Counted from the stretch's first letter, positions 35,451 through 42,999 are shown. The stretch is DNA of 64,000 nt from Methylacidimicrobium sp. AP8 (GCF_903064525.1 NZ_LR797830.1:992001-1056000); one strand, 5' to 3'. Program-made: numbers and translations. The notes: generated by a model not told the origin, from the letters alone.

Positions 35451-35498
35451 TGTGGGGAAGCAAACAAAAGAAAACAACGTGCTGTCGCGGTTGCGACA
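35451..35498. promoter_or_regulatory. Pair of NifA upstream activator sites before nifB
   Basis: Site 1 (35451-35466) is TGT-GGGGAAGCAA-ACA; site 2 (35483-35498) is TGT-CGCGGTTGCG-ACA, a near-perfect palindrome. Both match TGT-N10-ACA, and they start 32 bp apart, about three helical turns. They lie 80-125 bp upstream of the nifB promoter in a 330-bp gap with no gene. Confidence 0.75.
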
Positions 35499-35574: not shown

Positions 35575-35590
35575 TGGCACGCACTTTGCT
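35575..35590 (+). promoter_or_regulatory. Sigma-54 promoter of the nifB operon
   Basis: TGGCACGCACTTTGCT has GG (35576-35577) and GC (35588-35589) at the exact 10-base gap. It is the best consensus match in the window. The predicted start site near 35601 leaves a 77-nt leader with AAAGGA before nifB. Confidence 0.75.
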
Positions 35591-35677
35591 CGAATCGATT
35601 CCGGTGTGCGACTTTCCGTGACCGAAAGCACGGAGGCCGACAGGAGCAACAAAGAAGCCGCCAGAAAGGACAATGCG

Positions 35678-37261
35678 ATGGAAGCTCTGATGGAACCGGA
35701 ACGGGGTGTCAAGGCACGGTTTGCAAATCTCAAGGGGCTGGCGATTCCCGTCGCGCCACACAAAGGTTGCGGCTCCAGCGGGGGAAGCGGCAAGGCCAGC
35801 TGCGGCTCGGGGGCCGGCTCCGGCGACCTGCCGCCCGAGATTTGGGAGAAGGTCAAGAACCATCCCTGCTACAGCGAGGAGGCGCACCACCATTACGCCC
35901 GGATGCACGTGGCGGTCGCTCCCGCTTGCAACATCCAGTGCAACTACTGCAACCGGAAGTACGATTGCGCCAACGAGAGCCGTCCCGGGGTGGTGAGCGA
36001 GCGGCTGACCCCGGAGCAGGCGGCCAAAAAGGTGCTCGCGGTGGCCTCCGCGATCCCGCAGATGACGGTCCTCGGGATCGCGGGGCCGGGGGATCCGTTG
36101 GCCAATCCGGAGAAAACTTTCCGGACCTTCGAGCTGGTGGCCAAAGCCGCTCCGGACATCAAGCTCTGTCTTTCGACCAACGGGCTCGCCCTGCCGGATC
36201 ACGTCGCGCGGATCAAGGATTTCCGGGTCGATCACGTCACGATCACGATCAACATGATCGATCCTGAAGTCGGGGCGCGGATCTACCCTTGGGTCTTCTT
36301 TCGCCACAAGCGCTACACGGGGAAGGACGCGGCGAAGGTTCTCACGGAGCGGCAGCTCGAGGGGCTCGAGATGCTGACCCAGGCGGGAATCCTCTGCAAG
36401 GTCAACTCGGTCATGATCCCCGGGATCAACGACGACCACCTGGTCGAGGTGAACAAGGCGGTCAAGAGCCGCGGGGCGTTCCTGCACAACATCATGCCGC
36501 TGATCTCCGCGCCCGAGCATGGAACGGTCTTCGGTCTCTCCGGCCAGCGCGGCCCGACCGCCCAGGAGCTGAAGGCGCTCCAAGACAAGTGCGAGGGCGA
36601 GATGAACATGATGCGCCACTGCCGACAGTGCCGGGCCGACGCGGTCGGCCTGCTCGGGGAGGACCGGGGAGCCGAATTCACCACGGACCGGATCGAGTCG
36701 ATGGAAATTACCTACGATGCATCCAAGCGGCAGGCCTATCGAGAATCGGTCGAAATCGAGCGGGCGGCGCGGCGGGCGGCCAAGGAGCGGGAGCTCCTCA
36801 CGCTCGCCGGGGAGAACAGCAACCGGAAAATTCTCATCGCGGTCGCCACGAAAGGTGGGGGCAAGGTCAACGAGCATTTCGGCCACGCCAAGGAGTTCCA
36901 GATTTACGAGCTGAGCACCGCCGGCTCGAAGTTCGTAGGCCATCGGCGCGTCGATCTCTACTGCCAAGGAGGCTATGGCGAAGAGGACGCCCTCGCAGGG
37001 GTCATCCGCGCGATCAACGACTGCGTCGCGGTGCTGGTCGCCAAGATCGGAGCCTGCCCGAAGGAAGAGCTCCAAAAGGCGGGAATCGAGCCGGTCGACC
37101 AATATGCCTACAGCTACATCGAGACCGCGGCGATCGCCTACTACCGGAGCTACCTGGAGAGGTTGAAGAGCGGGGCCCTCGCCGAGGTCAAGCGGGGGGA
37201 TGCGCTGATCCGCCAGGGCGCGTTCATCGATTCGGGCGCGGCCGTGCCGCAGGCGGCTTGA
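35678..37261 (+). CDS. nifB: FeMo-co biosynthesis radical SAM protein NifB
   Basis: NifB (527 aa) makes NifB-co, the 8Fe-9S-C precursor of FeMo-co, using S-adenosylmethionine. The radical SAM motif is C84-x3-C88-x2-C91 (ACNIQCNYC), with [14 protein letters not shown] following. A Gly/Ser/Cys-rich N-terminal stretch ([16 protein letters not shown]) is usual in this family. Residues from about 395 onward form a NifX-like domain ([20 protein letters not shown]) that binds the product. ATG 35678 with AAAGGA was preferred over the in-frame GTG 35606. First gene of a long operon with its own sigma-54 promoter. Confidence 0.97.
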
Positions 37262-37300
37262 AGGGCGGAACGAAAACAGAAAGGAAACGGAGAAACATCG

Positions 37301-37519
37301 ATGCCATACAAGATCGTGGCTTCGCAGTGCACGGGCTGCTCGGCCTGCGAGCCGGAGTGTCCGAACAAGGCGATATCGGAAAAAGATGGGATCTTCCGGA
37401 TCGATCCCAAGAAGTGCACCGAGTGTGTCGGCTTTTTTGACGAGCCCCAATGCGTCGCCGTCTGCCCGGTCGACAACACCTGCATCATCGACAAGAGCCT
37501 TCCGCGGTACCCGAGATGA
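37301..37519 (+). CDS. fdxN: 2[4Fe-4S] ferredoxin FdxN
   Basis: A 72-residue bacterial ferredoxin. Cluster motifs are [12 protein letters not shown] near the start and [18 protein letters not shown] in the second half, the longer spacing typical of nif-linked FdxN. It can serve as electron donor to nitrogenase or to NifB for radical SAM chemistry; its place directly after nifB favours the latter. The stop overlaps the next ATG. Confidence 0.92.
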
Positions 37520-37875
37520 AGATCACGCTCACCCCGAAGGCCCAAGCCTTCATCAAGAAGATGACCCGGATGGGGACCGGAGGGCGACCCGGAGGCGGCC
37601 TGCGGTTGAGGGTCCAGCCCGGCGGGTGCTCCGGGCTTTCGACGGAGTTCACCGTCGAGCTGGGACCCAGGGAAGGAGATGCCGTCTGGGAAGGGAACGG
37701 TTGCCGGATTTTCGTCCCTGCCGAGAGCCGGCCGCTGCTCCGGGAAGCGATCCTCCATTTCGTCGAAAATCCCATGGAGACGCGGTTGATCGTCCTTTCC
37801 GGGCCTACCGGAAGCTGCGCCTGCTCTCAGGAAGCGGCAGCGGGAGCCTCCGGCGCATCCGCGAAGGCGGGATAG
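37516..37875 (+). CDS. A-type Fe-S carrier (third IscA/HesB-like)
   Basis: A 119-residue A-type carrier. It has the core [33 protein letters not shown] with the first cysteine, and the C-terminal pair [10 protein letters not shown]. It overlaps fdxN by 4 bp (ATGA), so the two are made together. The C-terminal tail after the last cysteine is Ala/Gly-rich. Role inferred: cluster delivery to nif proteins. Confidence 0.85.
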
Positions 37876-37882
37876 GAGGAAG

Positions 37883-38413
37883 ATGCCGATGGAAACGGGG
37901 GGCGCGGTCGCTGCGTGCCGGGAAGAACGGCTGGCGGAAGCGCATTGGGGCCCGCTCTCGAGGCGGACCGAAGATCTCCTGCGCGCCGCAGGCCGCTTGG
38001 GTCGGTCCCAGGCTCGGGCCGAGTCGCTTTTGCGCGAAGCGGCCGAGGCGGAGCCCAACCATGTCGCCGTCTTGATCGGCAACTACCGGTACGCTTTCTA
38101 CTCGGGCAAGCTTGCGGAGGCTCGGGATTGGGCTCTCGCCTGCCTTGCGGCCGTGGCGCAGAAGGCGGGTTTTCCTGAGGAGTGGCCGTTGGTCCGACCT
38201 CCGCTTCGGAAGGAACGGGCCCGGGAAGACCCTCTCTTTCGCCTCTACCTCTTCGCCCTTAAGGCCTACGGCTATCTGGAAATCCGGCTGGGCGAGCGGG
38301 AGAAGGGGCTTGCGGCTCTGCGGAAGCTGGAGGAGCTGGACCCGGAAGGACTGCTGCACGGCGGCGATCTGCGGAGGATCGTCGAGCGGGGAGCGGCGGA
38401 AGAAGAAGGCTGA
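37883..38413 (+). CDS. Nif-associated TPR-like helical protein
   Basis: A 176-residue, mostly helical protein. The repeats AESLLREAAEAEPNHVAVL and KGLAALRKLEELDPEGLLHG have TPR character. An ATAGGAGGAAG ribosome-binding site precedes ATG 37883. It lies in the nifB operon between a cluster carrier and nifZ. Similar helical-repeat proteins occur in other nif clusters, but no specific function can be assigned; it may scaffold maturation complexes. Confidence 0.6.
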   Translation: MPMETGGAVAACREERLAEAHWGPLSRRTEDLLRAAGRLGRSQARAESLLREAAEAEPNHVAVLIGNYRYAFYSGKLAEARDWALACLAAVAQKAGFPEEWPLVRPPLRKERAREDPLFRLYLFALKAYGYLEIRLGEREKGLAALRKLEELDPEGLLHGGDLRRIVERGAAEEEG

Positions 38414-38425
38414 ACGGAGGAACGG

Positions 38426-38737
38426 ATGGGGATGAACGACGAAGTGGAGCTCGATCGGCCGCCCGCCTTCACCTACGGCCAAACGGTGGTTTCCCGCAAG
38501 CATATCCGCAACGACGGCACCTTCCCCGGAAAGGAGATCGGCGAAATCTTGATCAAGAAAGGGGAGAAGGGAGTGGTCACCAGCATCGGCACCTTCCTCC
38601 AGCGATTTTACATCTATGGGGTGGACTTTTACGAGCGGGGCTGCGTGGTCGGAATGAAGGAAAAGGAGCTCGAGCTGGCGCCGGAAGGAGAAGAACAGAG
38701 ACTCGAGCGGCCCGAGTCCGAGGCGAGCCATGGGTGA
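38426..38737 (+). CDS. nifZ: Nitrogenase maturation protein NifZ
   Basis: NifZ (103 aa) helps form the second P-cluster of the MoFe protein. The family pattern is clear: FTYGQTVVSRKHIRNDGTFPG, GEILIKKGEKGVVTSIGTFLQ and YIYGVDFYERGCVVGMKEKEL (each of about 20 residues, partly quoted). It overlaps nifS by 8 bp. The compact length is typical. Confidence 0.92.
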   Translation: MGMNDEVELDRPPAFTYGQTVVSRKHIRNDGTFPGKEIGEILIKKGEKGVVTSIGTFLQRFYIYGVDFYERGCVVGMKEKELELAPEGEEQRLERPESEASHG

Positions 38738-39899
38738 GTGCGACCGGATCGATCTCGACCATAACGCGACGGCTCCGCTGCGGCCGGAAGCCCTGGCGGC
38801 CATGCTTCCCTATCTTCGGGAGCGCTACGGGAACCCGTCGAGTCCCGGCTTCCGCGGAAGGCTCGCCAAGGAAGCGGTCGGCCGGGCGCGCGGCGAAGTG
38901 GCCGCCCTGATCGGTGCCAAGCCCGAGGAAATCGTTTTCACCAGCGGCTGCACCGAATCGATCCACCAGGCGGTGCTGGGCGCGCTCGAGCTGGCTCCGC
39001 ATTCCCCCCGGGTCGTGACGACGGCGGTCGAGCACCCCGCCAGCTCCCTGCTCTTTGACCGGCTGAAGAGCCGCGGGGTGGAAGTCGTCCGCCTGCCGGT
39101 CGATCGCCGGGGTCGGCTCGACCTGGAAGCCCTCGAAGAAGCGCTCGCTGCTCCGGCGGCGCTGCTTTCCCTTGTCTGGGTCAACAACGAAACGGGGGTG
39201 ATCAGCCCTGTGGAAAGGGCGGTCGCCCTGGCGAAGGAGCGGGGTCTCCTCTGCCACCTGGACGGGGCGCAGGCGGTCGGGAAGCTCCCGGTCGATGCGC
39301 GCTCCCTCCCCTTCGATCTGCTCTCCTTTTCCGCGCACAAGCTCGGAGGACCCAAGGGGACCGGCGCGCTCTTCGTTCGGAAGGGAATCGCCCTGCCTCC
39401 GTTGATTTGTGGCCACCAGGAGCGGGGCCGGAGGGGAGGGACGGAGAACGTGGCGGGCATCGTGGGCTTCGGTGCGGCGGCGCGGCTGGCCGGAAACGAT
39501 CTGGGGGATCGGGCGGCTGCGGTAGGGCGGCTACGTGACCGGTTGGAGGAGGAGCTCCTCCGGGCTCTCCCCTTTGCGGCGGTCAACGGCCGGGAAAGTC
39601 CGCGGGTGGCGAACACGACGAGCGTCCGATTCGGCGGAATCGAGGGAGAAGAGCTGCTCGTCCGGCTGGAGCGGCGCGGAATCGAGGCTTCCTTAGGCTC
39701 GGCCTGCGCAAGCGGGGGAACGGAGCCCTCCCGGATTCTTTCGGCGATGGGGCTCTCGGAGGCCGAAGCCCGATCCACCCTCCGGTTCAGCTTGGGTGCG
39801 GAGACGACCATCGAGCAGGTCGACCGGGCTTCCCGGGCTATCGTGGAGGAGGCTCGGGCGCTCAGGGATGGAGAAGAGAAAGGAGGGAAGGCGGCGTGA
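38730..39899 (+). CDS. nifS: Cysteine desulfurase NifS
   Basis: A PLP enzyme (389 aa) that releases sulfur from cysteine for nitrogenase Fe-S clusters. It has LDHNATAPLRPEAL at the start, H102 in VEHPASS, the PLP lysine K204 (SAHKLGGPKG) and the persulfide-forming C326 (LGSACASGG). Dedicated NifS proteins normally work with the scaffold NifU, but no nifU is in this window. Overlaps nifZ by 8 bp and nifT by 4 bp. Confidence 0.95.
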   Translation: MGECDRIDLDHNATAPLRPEALAAMLPYLRERYGNPSSPGFRGRLAKEAVGRARGEVAALIGAKPEEIVFTSGCTESIHQAVLGALELAPHSPRVVTTAVEHPASSLLFDRLKSRGVEVVRLPVDRRGRLDLEALEEALAAPAALLSLVWVNNETGVISPVERAVALAKERGLLCHLDGAQAVGKLPVDARSLPFDLLSFSAHKLGGPKGTGALFVRKGIALPPLICGHQERGRRGGTENVAGIVGFGAAARLAGNDLGDRAAAVGRLRDRLEEELLRALPFAAVNGRESPRVANTTSVRFGGIEGEELLVRLERRGIEASLGSACASGGTEPSRILSAMGLSEAEARSTLRFSLGAETTIEQVDRASRAIVEEARALRDGEEKGGKAA

Positions 39900-40117
39900 A
39901 GGTGATGATTCGGCGAGGAGCCGCGGGGGGGCTTTCGGTCTACGTAGCCAAAAAGGACCTGGAAGAGCCGGTGGTCCGCGCGGAGAAACCCGGGCTTTGG
40001 GGCGGGACGGTGACACTCGCCAACGGTTGGCGCTTCCAGCTTCCGGACATGCCGGGCGACACACCCCTGCCGATCACTGTCGAGGCGCGGCGCTTGTCCG
40101 AAGAGGGAGAGCCATGA
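39896..40117 (+). CDS. nifT: Nitrogen fixation protein NifT/FixU
   Basis: A 73-residue protein of the NifT/FixU family, with KVMIRRGAAGGLSVYVAKKDLE and GLWGGTVTLANGWRFQLPDM (partly quoted). Function is unknown even in model diazotrophs. It starts with GTG 39896, overlapping the nifS stop (GTGA), and its own stop overlaps the next ATG. Confidence 0.9.
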   Translation: MKVMIRRGAAGGLSVYVAKKDLEEPVVRAEKPGLWGGTVTLANGWRFQLPDMPGDTPLPITVEARRLSEEGEP

Positions 40118-41289
40118 GGGAGGGGTCGCCCGCCACGGGTCCTCGGTCGAGGATTCCGTTATCCGATCCGGATTTCACCGAGGAAGAGCTGGCGGCCGTC
40201 GATTCGGTCCTCCGGTCGCCGGATGTCAGCGGCGGATCCTTGGTGGAAGCATGGGAGGAAGCGTTTGCCGCCTGGGTAGGACGGAAGCAAGCGGTGGCGG
40301 TCGCGAGCGGCACCGTCGGTCTCTGGCTCGCGCTGCGGGCTCTGGGTATCGGCCCCGGGCAGCGGGTGATCCTCTCGGGCTACACCTGGCACCAGATAGG
40401 AGCGGCGGTGGCCTTGTGCGGGGCGGAGCCCTTCTTCGTCGACATCGACTACTGGTCGGGGGCCCTGTCGCCGGAACGGGTTGCGGAGGCGGCCCGCCTA
40501 GGCGCCCGGGCGATCCTCGCCGGCAACGTCCTCGGACATCCGGCGCCATGGAAGGAGCTCGCCCGGCTGGGCGAGGAGCACGGGCTGCTGCTCCTGGAAG
40601 ATTCGACCGAGGCGATCGGGTCCCGCTACGGCGATCGAATGACCGGGAGGTTCGGCCATGCGGCGGTCTTCGATTTTTCGCAACCCGGGGCGCTTGTCTG
40701 CGGAGAGGGAGGGATGGTCGTGACCGACGACGAGGAGCTGGCCGCCGCCATCCGGCACGGGAGGAGCCGCCCACGGACCGACCGTTTTTCGGACATCGCG
40801 ACGATGGTTCCCTGCCTCCAAGCGATCCCGAGCAATCTCGCCGCCGCGCTGGGGATCGCGCAGCTCCGCCGGGTCCGGGAGATTCTGGAACGCCGGCGCC
40901 TGGTCGAAGCGTGGTACTTCCGGCAGATGAAGTCCTTCGAGGGCATCAAGGACCCCTACATCGCCCCGGAGGTCACCGAGGTGCACTGGTTTCTCTATCC
41001 GGTCCATTTGGGGACGCGTTTCGGCCGCTCGAGCCGGGATGCGATCCTCGAAGACCTGGCCCAGGCGGGGATCGAGGCGTCGGCCTATTGCCGGCCGATG
41101 CATCGGCATGGATATTTCGTCGATCGCGGCCGGCGGAAGGGAAGCCTCCCGGTCACCGAAAAGGTGGCCGACCGCTCCATCGTTCTTCCGTTTCACGTCC
41201 ATCTAACCGAAGAGCAGGTCGCCTTTGTCGTGAAAACGCTCAAGGACGCTTCGGTCAATGTCGGAGCCGGCGCGGCGATATACTTGTAA
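40114..41289 (+). CDS. DegT/DnrJ/EryC1-fold protein lacking the PLP lysine
   Basis: A 391-residue protein with the sugar-aminotransferase fold: IPLSDPDFTEEELAAVDSVL at the start, AVAVASGTVGLWLALRALG (PLP phosphate region) and LLEDSTEAIGSRYGDR with D163 in the position that contacts the PLP ring nitrogen. The Schiff-base lysine normally seven residues before the xGEGG block is replaced: residues 186-200 read FDFSQPGALVCGEGG, with Gly192 at the lysine position. It therefore cannot act as an ordinary aminotransferase. Coupled to nifT by an ATGA overlap. Its role in nitrogen fixation is unknown. Confidence 0.82.
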   Translation: MREGSPATGPRSRIPLSDPDFTEEELAAVDSVLRSPDVSGGSLVEAWEEAFAAWVGRKQAVAVASGTVGLWLALRALGIGPGQRVILSGYTWHQIGAAVALCGAEPFFVDIDYWSGALSPERVAEAARLGARAILAGNVLGHPAPWKELARLGEEHGLLLLEDSTEAIGSRYGDRMTGRFGHAAVFDFSQPGALVCGEGGMVVTDDEELAAAIRHGRSRPRTDRFSDIATMVPCLQAIPSNLAAALGIAQLRRVREILERRRLVEAWYFRQMKSFEGIKDPYIAPEVTEVHWFLYPVHLGTRFGRSSRDAILEDLAQAGIEASAYCRPMHRHGYFVDRGRRKGSLPVTEKVADRSIVLPFHVHLTEEQVAFVVKTLKDASVNVGAGAAIYL

Positions 41290-41311
41290 GCCGGAAACAA
41301 GAGGAGAGCCA

Positions 41312-41566
41312 ATGAACGAAGAGTTGGTAGTCATCCATGTCCGTTTCGCCAACGACGGGTCGGTGCAGGAGATCGGGGAGAGACCGCGCGGGCTTTCCGC
41401 GCAGGCCTGGTTCGGCCGGCTCTGGAAGAAAGCCGGCGACCGGTTCCAAGCGTTGGCCGGCGGGCGGGGCATCTTCCGCCTGCCGCGGGCCGAGCTCGAT
41501 GCGTTGCGGGTGCCGGAGCCCGAGGGGGAGACCCAGGGAGAAGCGGAGAAAGGAGCCGGAGCATGA
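41312..41566 (+). CDS. Small nif-associated hypothetical protein
   Basis: An 84-residue protein (MNEELVVIHVRFANDGSVQE...). Basic and aromatic residues cluster in LSAQAWFGRLWKKAGDRFQAL, and the C-terminus is acidic. ATG 41312 follows GAGGAGAG. It lies between the DegT-fold protein and the SIR2-like protein and overlaps the latter by 4 bp (ATGA), so stoichiometric expression is likely. No family is recognised with confidence. Confidence 0.7.
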   Translation: MNEELVVIHVRFANDGSVQEIGERPRGLSAQAWFGRLWKKAGDRFQALAGGRGIFRLPRAELDALRVPEPEGETQGEAEKGAGA

Positions 41567-42417
41567 GCGGCGCCGAGAGCGAAATCACCAGATGCCTCGA
41601 GGAGGGGAAGCTCGTTCCCTATTTGGGGCCCGGGATCTGGAGCGGAGAGGGCGGCAACACCCCTCCGTTCCCGACGGACGCCGAAAGCCTGGCCGAGAGC
41701 CTCGCCCGTCGAGTGGCCGTCCCAGGTCGGGCGAGGAAGATCCTCTCGGCGGCGGCCCAATATATCGAAAGCCAGAAGCATCGCAAGACCCTACGGAAGC
41801 TCCTTCTGGATACTTTTTCGGTCCCGAGCCCCAAGCTCGTTCTCCATGAACGGCTGGCCGGCCTAGCTCCGCTACCCCTGGTCGTCGATGTCTGGTATGA
41901 CGGAGCCCTCCGCTCGGCATTCCAAGGGCGCTCGGATTGGGGGGAGATTCAAGGGGTGAGCCAAGCCGAACATCCCGGCAGCTGGACGCGAGCCTATCGG
42001 CCGGACGGCGAGGAGGCGGCCCCGGAGGAGGCGAGCCGATGGGGGACGGTTCTGTACAAGCCGCTGGGCTCGGTCAGTCCCGCCGGGAATTTCGTCGTCT
42101 CGGATTCCGACTTGGTGGAGGTGTTCACCGAGATCGATATCCAGACGCCGATCCCGGGGGTCGTGCAGGAGAGGCGCCGGGGTCGACACTTCCTCTTCCT
42201 CGGGTGCCGCTTTGCGACCCAGGCGGAGCGGATCTATACCCGGCAGATCCTCAAGAGGTCGTCGGATCGCCATTGGGCGGTCCTACCAGGCGAGATCACC
42301 CGCAACGAGGAGCGCTTCGTGCAGGAGATGCGGATCGAGCGGATCCCGTTTTCCCTAGGCGAGATCTGCGACCGCCTCTTCGCCTCGCCTCCCGCCGCAA
42401 ATCCGAATTTGTCGTAA
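41563..42417 (+). CDS. SIR2-like protein in the nif operon
   Basis: A 284-residue protein of the SIR2-like type. The N-terminal KLVPYLGPGIWSGEG (16-30) matches the NAD-binding G-A-G-x-S loop with Pro in place of Ala. LYKPLGS (164-170) and FLFLGCRFATQAERI (from 210) match the rest of the Rossmann fold. The catalytic His of deacetylase sirtuins is not evident. SIR2-like genes occur in other nif clusters without known function; NAD or ADP-ribose binding is inference. A 171-bp spacer with a new sigma-54 promoter follows. Confidence 0.75.
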   Translation: MSGAESEITRCLEEGKLVPYLGPGIWSGEGGNTPPFPTDAESLAESLARRVAVPGRARKILSAAAQYIESQKHRKTLRKLLLDTFSVPSPKLVLHERLAGLAPLPLVVDVWYDGALRSAFQGRSDWGEIQGVSQAEHPGSWTRAYRPDGEEAAPEEASRWGTVLYKPLGSVSPAGNFVVSDSDLVEVFTEIDIQTPIPGVVQERRRGRHFLFLGCRFATQAERIYTRQILKRSSDRHWAVLPGEITRNEERFVQEMRIERIPFSLGEICDRLFASPPAANPNLS

Positions 42418-42549: not shown

Positions 42550-42565
42550 TGGCACGCGGCCTGCT
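42550..42565 (+). promoter_or_regulatory. Putative sigma-54 promoter of nifW-fixABCX
   Basis: TGGCACGCGGCCTGCT has GG (42551-42552) and GC (42563-42564) 10 bases apart. The predicted start site is near 42576, 13 nt before nifW. An imperfect NifA site, TGT-CGTAAAAGCG-ACC (42410-42425), lies about 125 bp upstream. Confidence 0.6.
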
Positions 42566-42588: not shown

Positions 42589-42999
42589 ATGATCGATCCG
42601 ATTCTCGCCGACTTGAGCCGCCTTTCGGCGGCAGAGGAGTTTTTCGACTATCTGGAGCTTCCCTACGATCCTCAGGTCGTTCGCGTCAACCGGCTCCACA
42701 TTCTCAAGCGCTTCCAGAAGTACCTGCTCTCGGCCGAGGCTCCGAAGGAGCGGCACCAGGCTCAGCTTCGCGTCTTCTACCGGGGGCTGCTCGAAGCGGC
42801 CTACCAAGATTTCGTCCACTCGACCGCGCTGCAGGAAAAAGTTTTCGCGGTGTTTCAGCGGCCCCCTCCGGAAAAGAAGCCGATGACCGCCGCCGTCGCA
42901 ATCGAGGACCTGCGCTCCTCGCTGCGCGGGAAGCCGGTGCCGGGGGGGGCGCCGACGGTGCCGGGGAGTCGGCTCCCTTCGGGAGGGGACGGAGCATGA
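42589..42999 (+). CDS. nifW: Nitrogenase-protecting protein NifW
   Basis: NifW (136 aa) associates with the MoFe protein and is linked to its stability or late maturation under oxygen. Family features are LSRLSAAEEFFDYLELPYD, VVRVNRLHILKRFQKYL and LLEAAYQDFVHSTALQEKVF. A Gly/Pro-rich tail follows. It heads a fixABCX-containing unit with its own sigma-54 promoter and overlaps fixA by 4 bp. Confidence 0.92.
   Translation: MIDPILADLSRLSAAEEFFDYLELPYDPQVVRVNRLHILKRFQKYLLSAEAPKERHQAQLRVFYRGLLEAAYQDFVHSTALQEKVFAVFQRPPPEKKPMTAAVAIEDLRSSLRGKPVPGGAPTVPGSRLPSGGDGA

Follow-up and report, generated by a model that had tools for sequence, protein, structure and literature searches.

A nif-embedded gene trio of Methylacidimicrobium encodes a lysine-less DegT-fold protein, a small protein and a SIR2-fold protein lacking NADase residues

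Locus organization and predicted transcription

The window analyzed here is a 64,000-nucleotide stretch of DNA from Methylacidimicrobium sp. AP8 (NZ_LR797830.1:992001-1056000). It comes from a 2.3-Mb genome in a single contig, related most closely to Methylacidimicrobium and other Methylacidiphilaceae, which are verrucomicrobial methanotrophs. Its nif-related features, numbered from the first base of the window, are as follows.

near 4.8 kb: nifH
7.5-12.1 kb: NifN-, NifE- and NifX-type matches (nifDKEN block and nifX)
about 32.9-34.5 kb, minus strand: nifA, start of the second nif block
35451-35466 and 35483-35498, plus strand: two NifA-type upstream activator sites (TGT-N10-ACA) ahead of the nifB promoter
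35575-35589, plus strand: exact sigma-54 (-24/-12) promoter, TGGCACGCACTTTGC, directly upstream of nifB
35606-40117, plus strand: nifB, ferredoxin, HesB/IscA-type, hypothetical, nifZ, nifS-type cysteine desulfurase and nifT genes, same operon, upstream of the trio
39896-40117, plus strand: nifT (fixU), Pfam 3.6e-30, overlapping the DegT start
40114-41289, plus strand: lysine-less DegT-fold protein, 391 aa, with Gly192 at the Schiff-base lysine position and Asp187 at the phosphate-serine position
41312-41566, plus strand: small protein, 84 aa, conserved core HVRFxxDGxVxEIxERP..WF..GGRGxFR
41563-42417, plus strand: SIR2-fold protein, 284 aa, with W111 for the NADase Asn and L168 for the His
42550-42564, plus strand: sigma-54-like site with one mismatch, upstream of nifW
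42589-42999: nifW, Pfam 5.7e-32

The trio lies between nifT and nifW in the second nif block, which runs in the order nifA (minus strand), nifB through nifT, trio, nifW and fixABCX, and ends at 46.6 kb. The ATG of the DegT gene shares four bases with the stop codon of nifT (ATGA), and the SIR2 ATG overlaps the stop codon of the small gene in the same ATGA arrangement; such overlaps resemble those of coupled operons. A preliminary description of this DNA had proposed three coupled genes at this position, and the open reading frames, coordinates and overlaps agree with it.

When the whole window was scanned, the site ahead of nifB was the only -24/-12 match with zero mismatches, and TGT-N10-ACA sites numbered 5, versus 2.1 expected. 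The exact site is presumably the promoter of a nifB operon whose last genes would be the trio. The site before nifW carries one mismatch, and such sites can arise by chance; its position suggests that nifW-fixABCX may form a separate transcript starting past the trio, so that the trio probably closes the nifB operon. Consensus matching supports NifA/sigma-54 control of the trio's operon, as the preliminary description had held, and published proteome data on a homologue agree: the SIR2 protein of Rhodobacter capsulatus (Rcc03262), which adjoins NifT, is detected in the wild type and absent from the proteome of a nifA double mutant (PMC6925177). In N2-fixing cells of Methylacidiphilum fumariolicum SolV, expression of fixU (nifT, Mfum_690015) rises from 164 to 2265 RPKM and that of nifW (Mfum_690011) from 62 to 2260 RPKM (PMC3404531). 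The three SolV locus tags between Mfum_690011 and Mfum_690015 (Mfum_690012-690014) match the trio in number and place.

Sequence and predicted structure of the trio proteins

The DegT-fold protein belongs to Pfam DegT_DnrJ_EryC1 (PF01041, 1.2e-81), and its AlphaFold model (mean pLDDT 89.7) matches GDP-perosamine synthase 3dr7 with a VIA Z of 45.8 (2.1 A, 363 residues). It scores under all NCBIfam equivalog cut-offs, that of the RfbH model included. G192 aligns on the Schiff-base lysine of solved sugar aminotransferases. Among 80 homologues taken from genomes and plasmids, this column holds Gly in 40, Ser in 36 and Cys, Ala, Phe or Leu in one each, with Lys and His in none, although the sequences are not independent, the 65 that lie within the scanned loci collapsing to 34 after clustering at ~80% identity. 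Loss of the lysine as a local mutation was therefore rejected. The full-length paralogue that matches best within the same genome has the lysine (FSFFPTKNLG). The aspartate that contacts the PLP-ring nitrogen (D163) is kept in 80/80 homologues; thus the preliminary description was right on both the retained D163 and the substitution by Gly192, and the loss of lysine extends to every nif-linked homologue compared. Position 187, five residues ahead of the lysine site, is Asp in all 80. Canonical enzymes (ArnB, AHBA synthase) carry a phosphate-binding Ser at this position, and its uniform replacement by Asp counts against PLP binding by the protein.

Other positions of the DegT pocket region are strongly conserved. 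N138, W146 and E166 occur in 80/80 homologues, W114 and H142 in 79/80, and Ser65 of the SGT-type phosphate loop in 75/80; the polar residues classed as invariant include N138, H142, E162 and E166. A C-terminal tail, N-x-G-A-G-x-A-I-Y(L), recurs in about 77-79 of the 80 homologues; the model shows it with little order, pLDDT dropping to 53-63. Compared with two genus neighbours, dN/dS was 0.16-0.17 for DegT and 0.20-0.21 for SIR2. A ratio of about 0.2 indicates that the lysine-less DegT is maintained by selection.

The SIR2-fold protein matches Pfam SIR2_2 (1.3e-19), and its model (mean pLDDT 89.4) resembles KomBC, DSR2 and ThsA (VIA Z 19-20). A profile search aligned it with ThsA (weakly, 1e-5), which sets the Asn of the TTNYD motif against W111 and the catalytic His against L168. 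The NADase catalytic Asn is missing throughout the family, W111 being present in 96/96 homologues, and position 168 is His in 1/96 and another residue (Leu, Ile, etc.) in 95/96. The glycine loop P19-Y-L-G22 is kept, and the ThsA motif G-F-S-F aligns with G-C-R-F. The modified NAD-binding loop noted in the preliminary description is borne out; the loss of the catalytic Asn and His had been overlooked. Identity as a NADase or anti-phage SIR2 protein was rejected because both residues are lost and PADLOC gave no match.

Invariant or nearly invariant polar positions of the SIR2 protein are H73, Q130, D181, D183, E190, D192, Q194, C215 and H237, and the most conserved stretch is the invariant loop T189-E-I-D-I-Q194. 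Model pLDDT falls below 50 exactly at the invariant residues 188-194, and the 189-194 loop thus behaves, in the model, like one that would be ordered only with a partner. When 11 and 79 sequences differing in the presence of DegT were compared, no SIR2 residue tracked it, so direct contact between DegT and SIR2 is unsupported by that comparison.

The 84-aa small protein is conserved in its core and position. It matched no Pfam or NCBIfam family, a Pfam scan of 32 members also gave no match, and a sequence search of the PDB returned nothing above chance.

Distribution and association with nif genes

With the SIR2 alignment as query, a scan of 84,980 species genomes found at least 519 relatives, from which the best 80 loci were taken; being the best-scoring ones, they are a biased sample of synteny. 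Recognizable nif genes occurred in 75 of these 80, and the other five, mostly short contigs or contig-edge matches, showed nothing beyond neighbours of the trio type or a match resembling NifA. Where the contig permits checking, nifT lies at most 4 kb upstream of SIR2 in every locus (71/71). The recurring order is nifB-ferredoxin-hesB-hyp-LRR-nifZ-nifZ-DUF3024-nifS-nifT-hyp-DegT-ferredoxin-small-SIR2; methanotrophs, thiobacilli and members of Azospirillum, Azoarcus and Acidithiobacillus show all or part of it. No sugar-pathway gene neighbours DegT in the conserved cluster. DegT homologues are present in 67 of the best-scoring 80 loci and the small protein, as an open frame, in 43; nifT-SIR2 arrangements without DegT occur in Rhizobium, Rhodopseudomonas, Granulicella and others. 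The genes of the trio are therefore linked, as first described, but the unit is not obligate, since SIR2 is often found without DegT and the small protein is sometimes absent.

In an even draw of 387 Pseudomonadota across the phylum, 21 genomes carried SIR2, 43 carried nifD and 19 carried both (Fisher 2e-18, a P-value that ignores shared ancestry among genomes that are not phylogenetically independent). Co-occurrence with nif in other genomes, which the preliminary description had named as a check, is strong, with 19/21 SIR2-positive Pseudomonadota also nifD-positive, and the lysine-less DegT appears in 8/387, all eight with both SIR2 and nifD. With the lysine missing from all 80 DegT homologues as well, neither of the two outcomes that the preliminary description gave as refuting was obtained. 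Among 121 Methylococcales genomes, SIR2 was found in 74, nifD in 74 and both in 72. The 16 strongest SIR2 genomes of this order all have DegT, and a 17th DegT lies at a contig edge. The remaining Methylococcales SIR2 matches are of a divergent type, in which the nine inspected keep the Asn and lack the His. This divergent type sometimes adjoins nifHDK. In Methylacidiphilaceae, nifH and SIR2 are present in the same 12/13 genomes. Overall, the invariant motifs span Alpha-, Beta- and Gammaproteobacteria and Verrucomicrobia and, for SIR2, an Acidobacteria metagenome-assembled genome (MAG).

DraT is absent from the genome studied here, and it was found in 15/30 SIR2-bearing genomes versus 13/14 of the SIR2-lacking diazotrophs examined. 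A role of SIR2 as partner of DraT ADP-ribosylation found no support in this distribution. Broken copies occur in legume symbionts: the SIR2 gene of Paraburkholderia sprentiae is a remnant and the DegT gene of Bradyrhizobium BWA-3-5 is interrupted.

Comparison with known systems

SIR2-like genes have been reported previously within nif clusters. In Mesorhizobium loti, msi351 is the last gene of the NifA-controlled nifB-fdxN-nifZ-fixU-msi351 cluster, and an msi351 insertion mutant is fully effective in symbiosis (PMC3538637). Further SIR2-like genes are on record for the nif clusters of Zymomonas mobilis (ZMO1821) and Rhodovulum. In the papers that state a gene order, the genes of R. capsulatus, M. 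loti and Rhodovulum occupy the same place by nifT/fixU, and those of R. capsulatus and M. loti are NifA-controlled, like the predicted control of the trio. The available passages label these genes SIR2 or sirtuin-like, and mention neither the residue loss nor the link to a lysine-less DegT. The nif clusters of R. etli and Rhodopseudomonas contain no DegT gene.

The DegT protein shares its whole fold and PF01041 with sugar aminotransferases (GDP-perosamine synthase 3bn1/3dr4, ArnB 1mdo/8sng and PseC 2fni), and it has the PLP-ring Asp and SGT-like loop of the DegT/DnrJ/EryC1/StrS group. Unlike those enzymes, the nif DegT lacks the Schiff-base lysine, has exchanged the phosphate-binding Ser for Asp, bears an additional conserved C-terminal tail and is linked to nif rather than to sugar-pathway genes. 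ColD and RfbH are PMP-dependent 3-dehydratases that also lack the lysine and have a catalytic His at its position. They share the lysine-less DegT fold; however, the nif proteins nearly always have Gly or Ser there and never His (0/80), and identity as a ColD/RfbH-type dehydratase was rejected on this basis. The anti-phage NADases ThsA, DSR2 and KomC share the SIR2_2 fold with the nif SIR2, whereas the latter has Trp for the Asn and Leu, Ile or others for the His, carries the invariant T-E-I-D-I-Q loop, lacks an effector or sensor domain and sits in a nif operon. NifZ and NifW have experimentally established roles in MoFe-protein maturation; together with NifT they share an operon block and regulation with the trio, but their sequences are unrelated to it.

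Our literature search, which covered mainly open-access journals, showed among the papers listed no title or abstract on a DegT protein in nif clusters, and no DegT mutant was found in the papers covered. Within the literature searched, the nif-specific lysine-less DegT family and its pairing with a second probable pseudoenzyme are new; the folds themselves are known. The view of the locus as an undescribed system has to be narrowed, since nif-linked SIR2-like genes appear in several papers and one of them, msi351, was mutated with no symbiotic phenotype.

Discussion

On this comparative and predictive analysis, DegT and SIR2 are probably pseudoenzymes under purifying selection. The lysine, the phosphate Ser and both NADase residues are lost, and conservation persists elsewhere in the two proteins, which is consistent with folds re-used without chemistry. 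The proximity to nifT and nifZ and the common NifA control point to nitrogenase maturation or protection as the step concerned. We therefore infer an absence of catalysis by DegT and SIR2, joint working of the trio, and a place in maturation or protection. We put at roughly 50% the probability that the trio is a non-catalytic, nif-specific accessory module acting at this step. Counting against such a module, the SIR2 protein is missing from more than half (24/43) of the sampled Pseudomonadota that carry nifD, and the invariant polar residues of DegT and SIR2 would also suit a new catalytic or ligand-binding site.

Since several pocket residues are invariant, the main rival is a repurposed active site: DegT would be an enzyme of altered mechanism that performs lysine-free chemistry like that of ColD and RfbH, with PMP or some other ligand bound in its former pocket. 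The ubiquitous PLP-ring Asp, the largely retained Ser65 and the family-characteristic residues W114, N138, H142, W146 and E166 would fit this, and among the closest folds are structures with PMP bound and K-to-A mutants still able to bind PLP or sugar ligands (3dr4, 4oca). However, the family has Gly or Ser where ColD and RfbH have His, the invariant Asp at the phosphate-Ser site is unfavourable to phosphate, and the conserved cluster has no sugar-pathway neighbour, so that we regard an active DegT as unlikely. An improbable alternative is a metabolite sensor, in which SIR2 would bind NAD or ADP-ribose and DegT a nucleotide sugar or PLP derivative, serving nitrogenase switch-off, perhaps with DraT. 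The kept glycine loop, the binding of NAD or cyclic ADP-ribose by the closest SIR2 folds (ThsA, DSR2) and the NifA co-regulation agree with a sensor; the lost Asn and His, the change of G-F-S-F to G-C-R-F and the want of any positive association with DraT do not. The preliminary description had likewise suggested, with a 'perhaps', the sensing or modification of a nucleotide-sugar or NAD-derived ligand, which is unsupported in a SIR2 protein without NADase residues and a DegT protein without lysine or phosphate Ser.

The trio genes could instead be near-neutral passengers, retained in nif clusters through linkage and with little function. The fully effective msi351 mutant, the remnant and interrupted copies of P. 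sprentiae and Bradyrhizobium BWA-3-5 and the many diazotrophs without trio genes would all be expected of passengers, but dN/dS of about 0.2, motifs that stay invariant from Proteobacteria to Verrucomicrobia and the Acidobacteria MAG (SIR2), and almost full retention in diazotrophic Methylococcales and Methylacidiphilaceae make this rather doubtful. Finally, a SIR2-type anti-phage abortive system inserted into the nif cluster would explain why the top fold matches are the anti-phage proteins KomBC, DSR2 and ThsA, but it is largely refuted by the loss of the catalytic Asn in 96/96 and His in 95/96 homologues, and with no PADLOC match, a strict nif association and NifA-type control we give it hardly any credence.

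Under the accessory-module reading, a DegT protein of sugar-aminotransferase fold and a SIR2 protein of NADase fold would have lost their catalytic residues and been retained as scaffold or chaperone, co-expressed with nifB, nifZ and nifT under NifA/sigma-54. DegT would be expected to form a homodimer, as in its relatives. SIR2, which accompanies nifT even where DegT is missing, would be the core part, with DegT and the small protein, often joined by a 2Fe-2S ferredoxin, as an add-on. The target would most likely be nitrogenase or its Fe-S maturation partners, at the NifZ/NifT/NifW stage of MoFe-protein assembly; alternatively, the module may protect nitrogenase in oxygen-exposed cells. Candidate contact sites are the invariant SIR2 loop and the invariant DegT tail, each of which is poorly ordered in its model.

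A fully effective msi351 mutant means that the SIR2 part is non-essential in the M. loti symbiosis and can be dispensed with in nodules, where oxygen is buffered by the plant. The broken copies in two further legume symbionts agree with dispensability in nodules. Tentatively, the trio may encode an unrecognized assembly or protection complex of a dead DegT dimer and a dead SIR2. Through the DegT tail and SIR2 loop these would dock onto nitrogenase or onto its maturation partners, and the complex would be important in oxygen-exposed, free-living diazotrophs and not in legume nodules.

Nitrogenase assembly is a key problem for the transfer of nitrogen fixation to new hosts, and to our knowledge the trio proteins are not on the standard list of nitrogenase accessory proteins. 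If the trio matures or protects nitrogenase in aerobic bacteria, it would be a missing part of that accessory set. If true, two unrelated enzyme folds would have lost their chemistry and been retained in one operon across several phyla.

A divergent type of SIR2 protein was found in nearly all of the sampled diazotrophic Methylococcales without the main SIR2 type, i.e., the SIR2-fold protein of the trio and its homologues. In the Methylococcales loci concerned (L106-L114; E values of 1e-20 to 1e-37), the catalytic Asn is kept (INRD) and the His is absent, and the genomic place of the gene varies, adjoining nifHDK in some cases and lying at other sites in others. One Pseudomonadota genome (G398) held a full SIR2 match together with several SIR2 fragments, some of them with stops. 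Since nifD gave no match above threshold in this genome and the nifH-like trace consisted of only a 24-residue piece on the same contig, ~29 kb from the SIR2 match, its nif region is perhaps decaying or incompletely assembled.

In two legume symbionts, genes of the trio look broken: SIR2 is reduced to an N-terminal remnant in P. sprentiae (L018, 8178-8435), and the DegT gene is interrupted in Bradyrhizobium BWA-3-5 (L015, 13101-14310). Proteobacterial loci also carry a conserved short gene ('hypT'; L014, 9924-10187, and relatives) that separates nifT from DegT and has no counterpart in the 64-kb window; a gene of similar size in L015 is annotated as DUF6129. DraT was present in a genus neighbour (G001) and absent from the window's own genome.

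Downstream of the trio, the window contains the following feature:

42550-42564, sigma-54-like site, upstream of nifW

This site suggests that nifW-fixABCX may form a transcript of its own.
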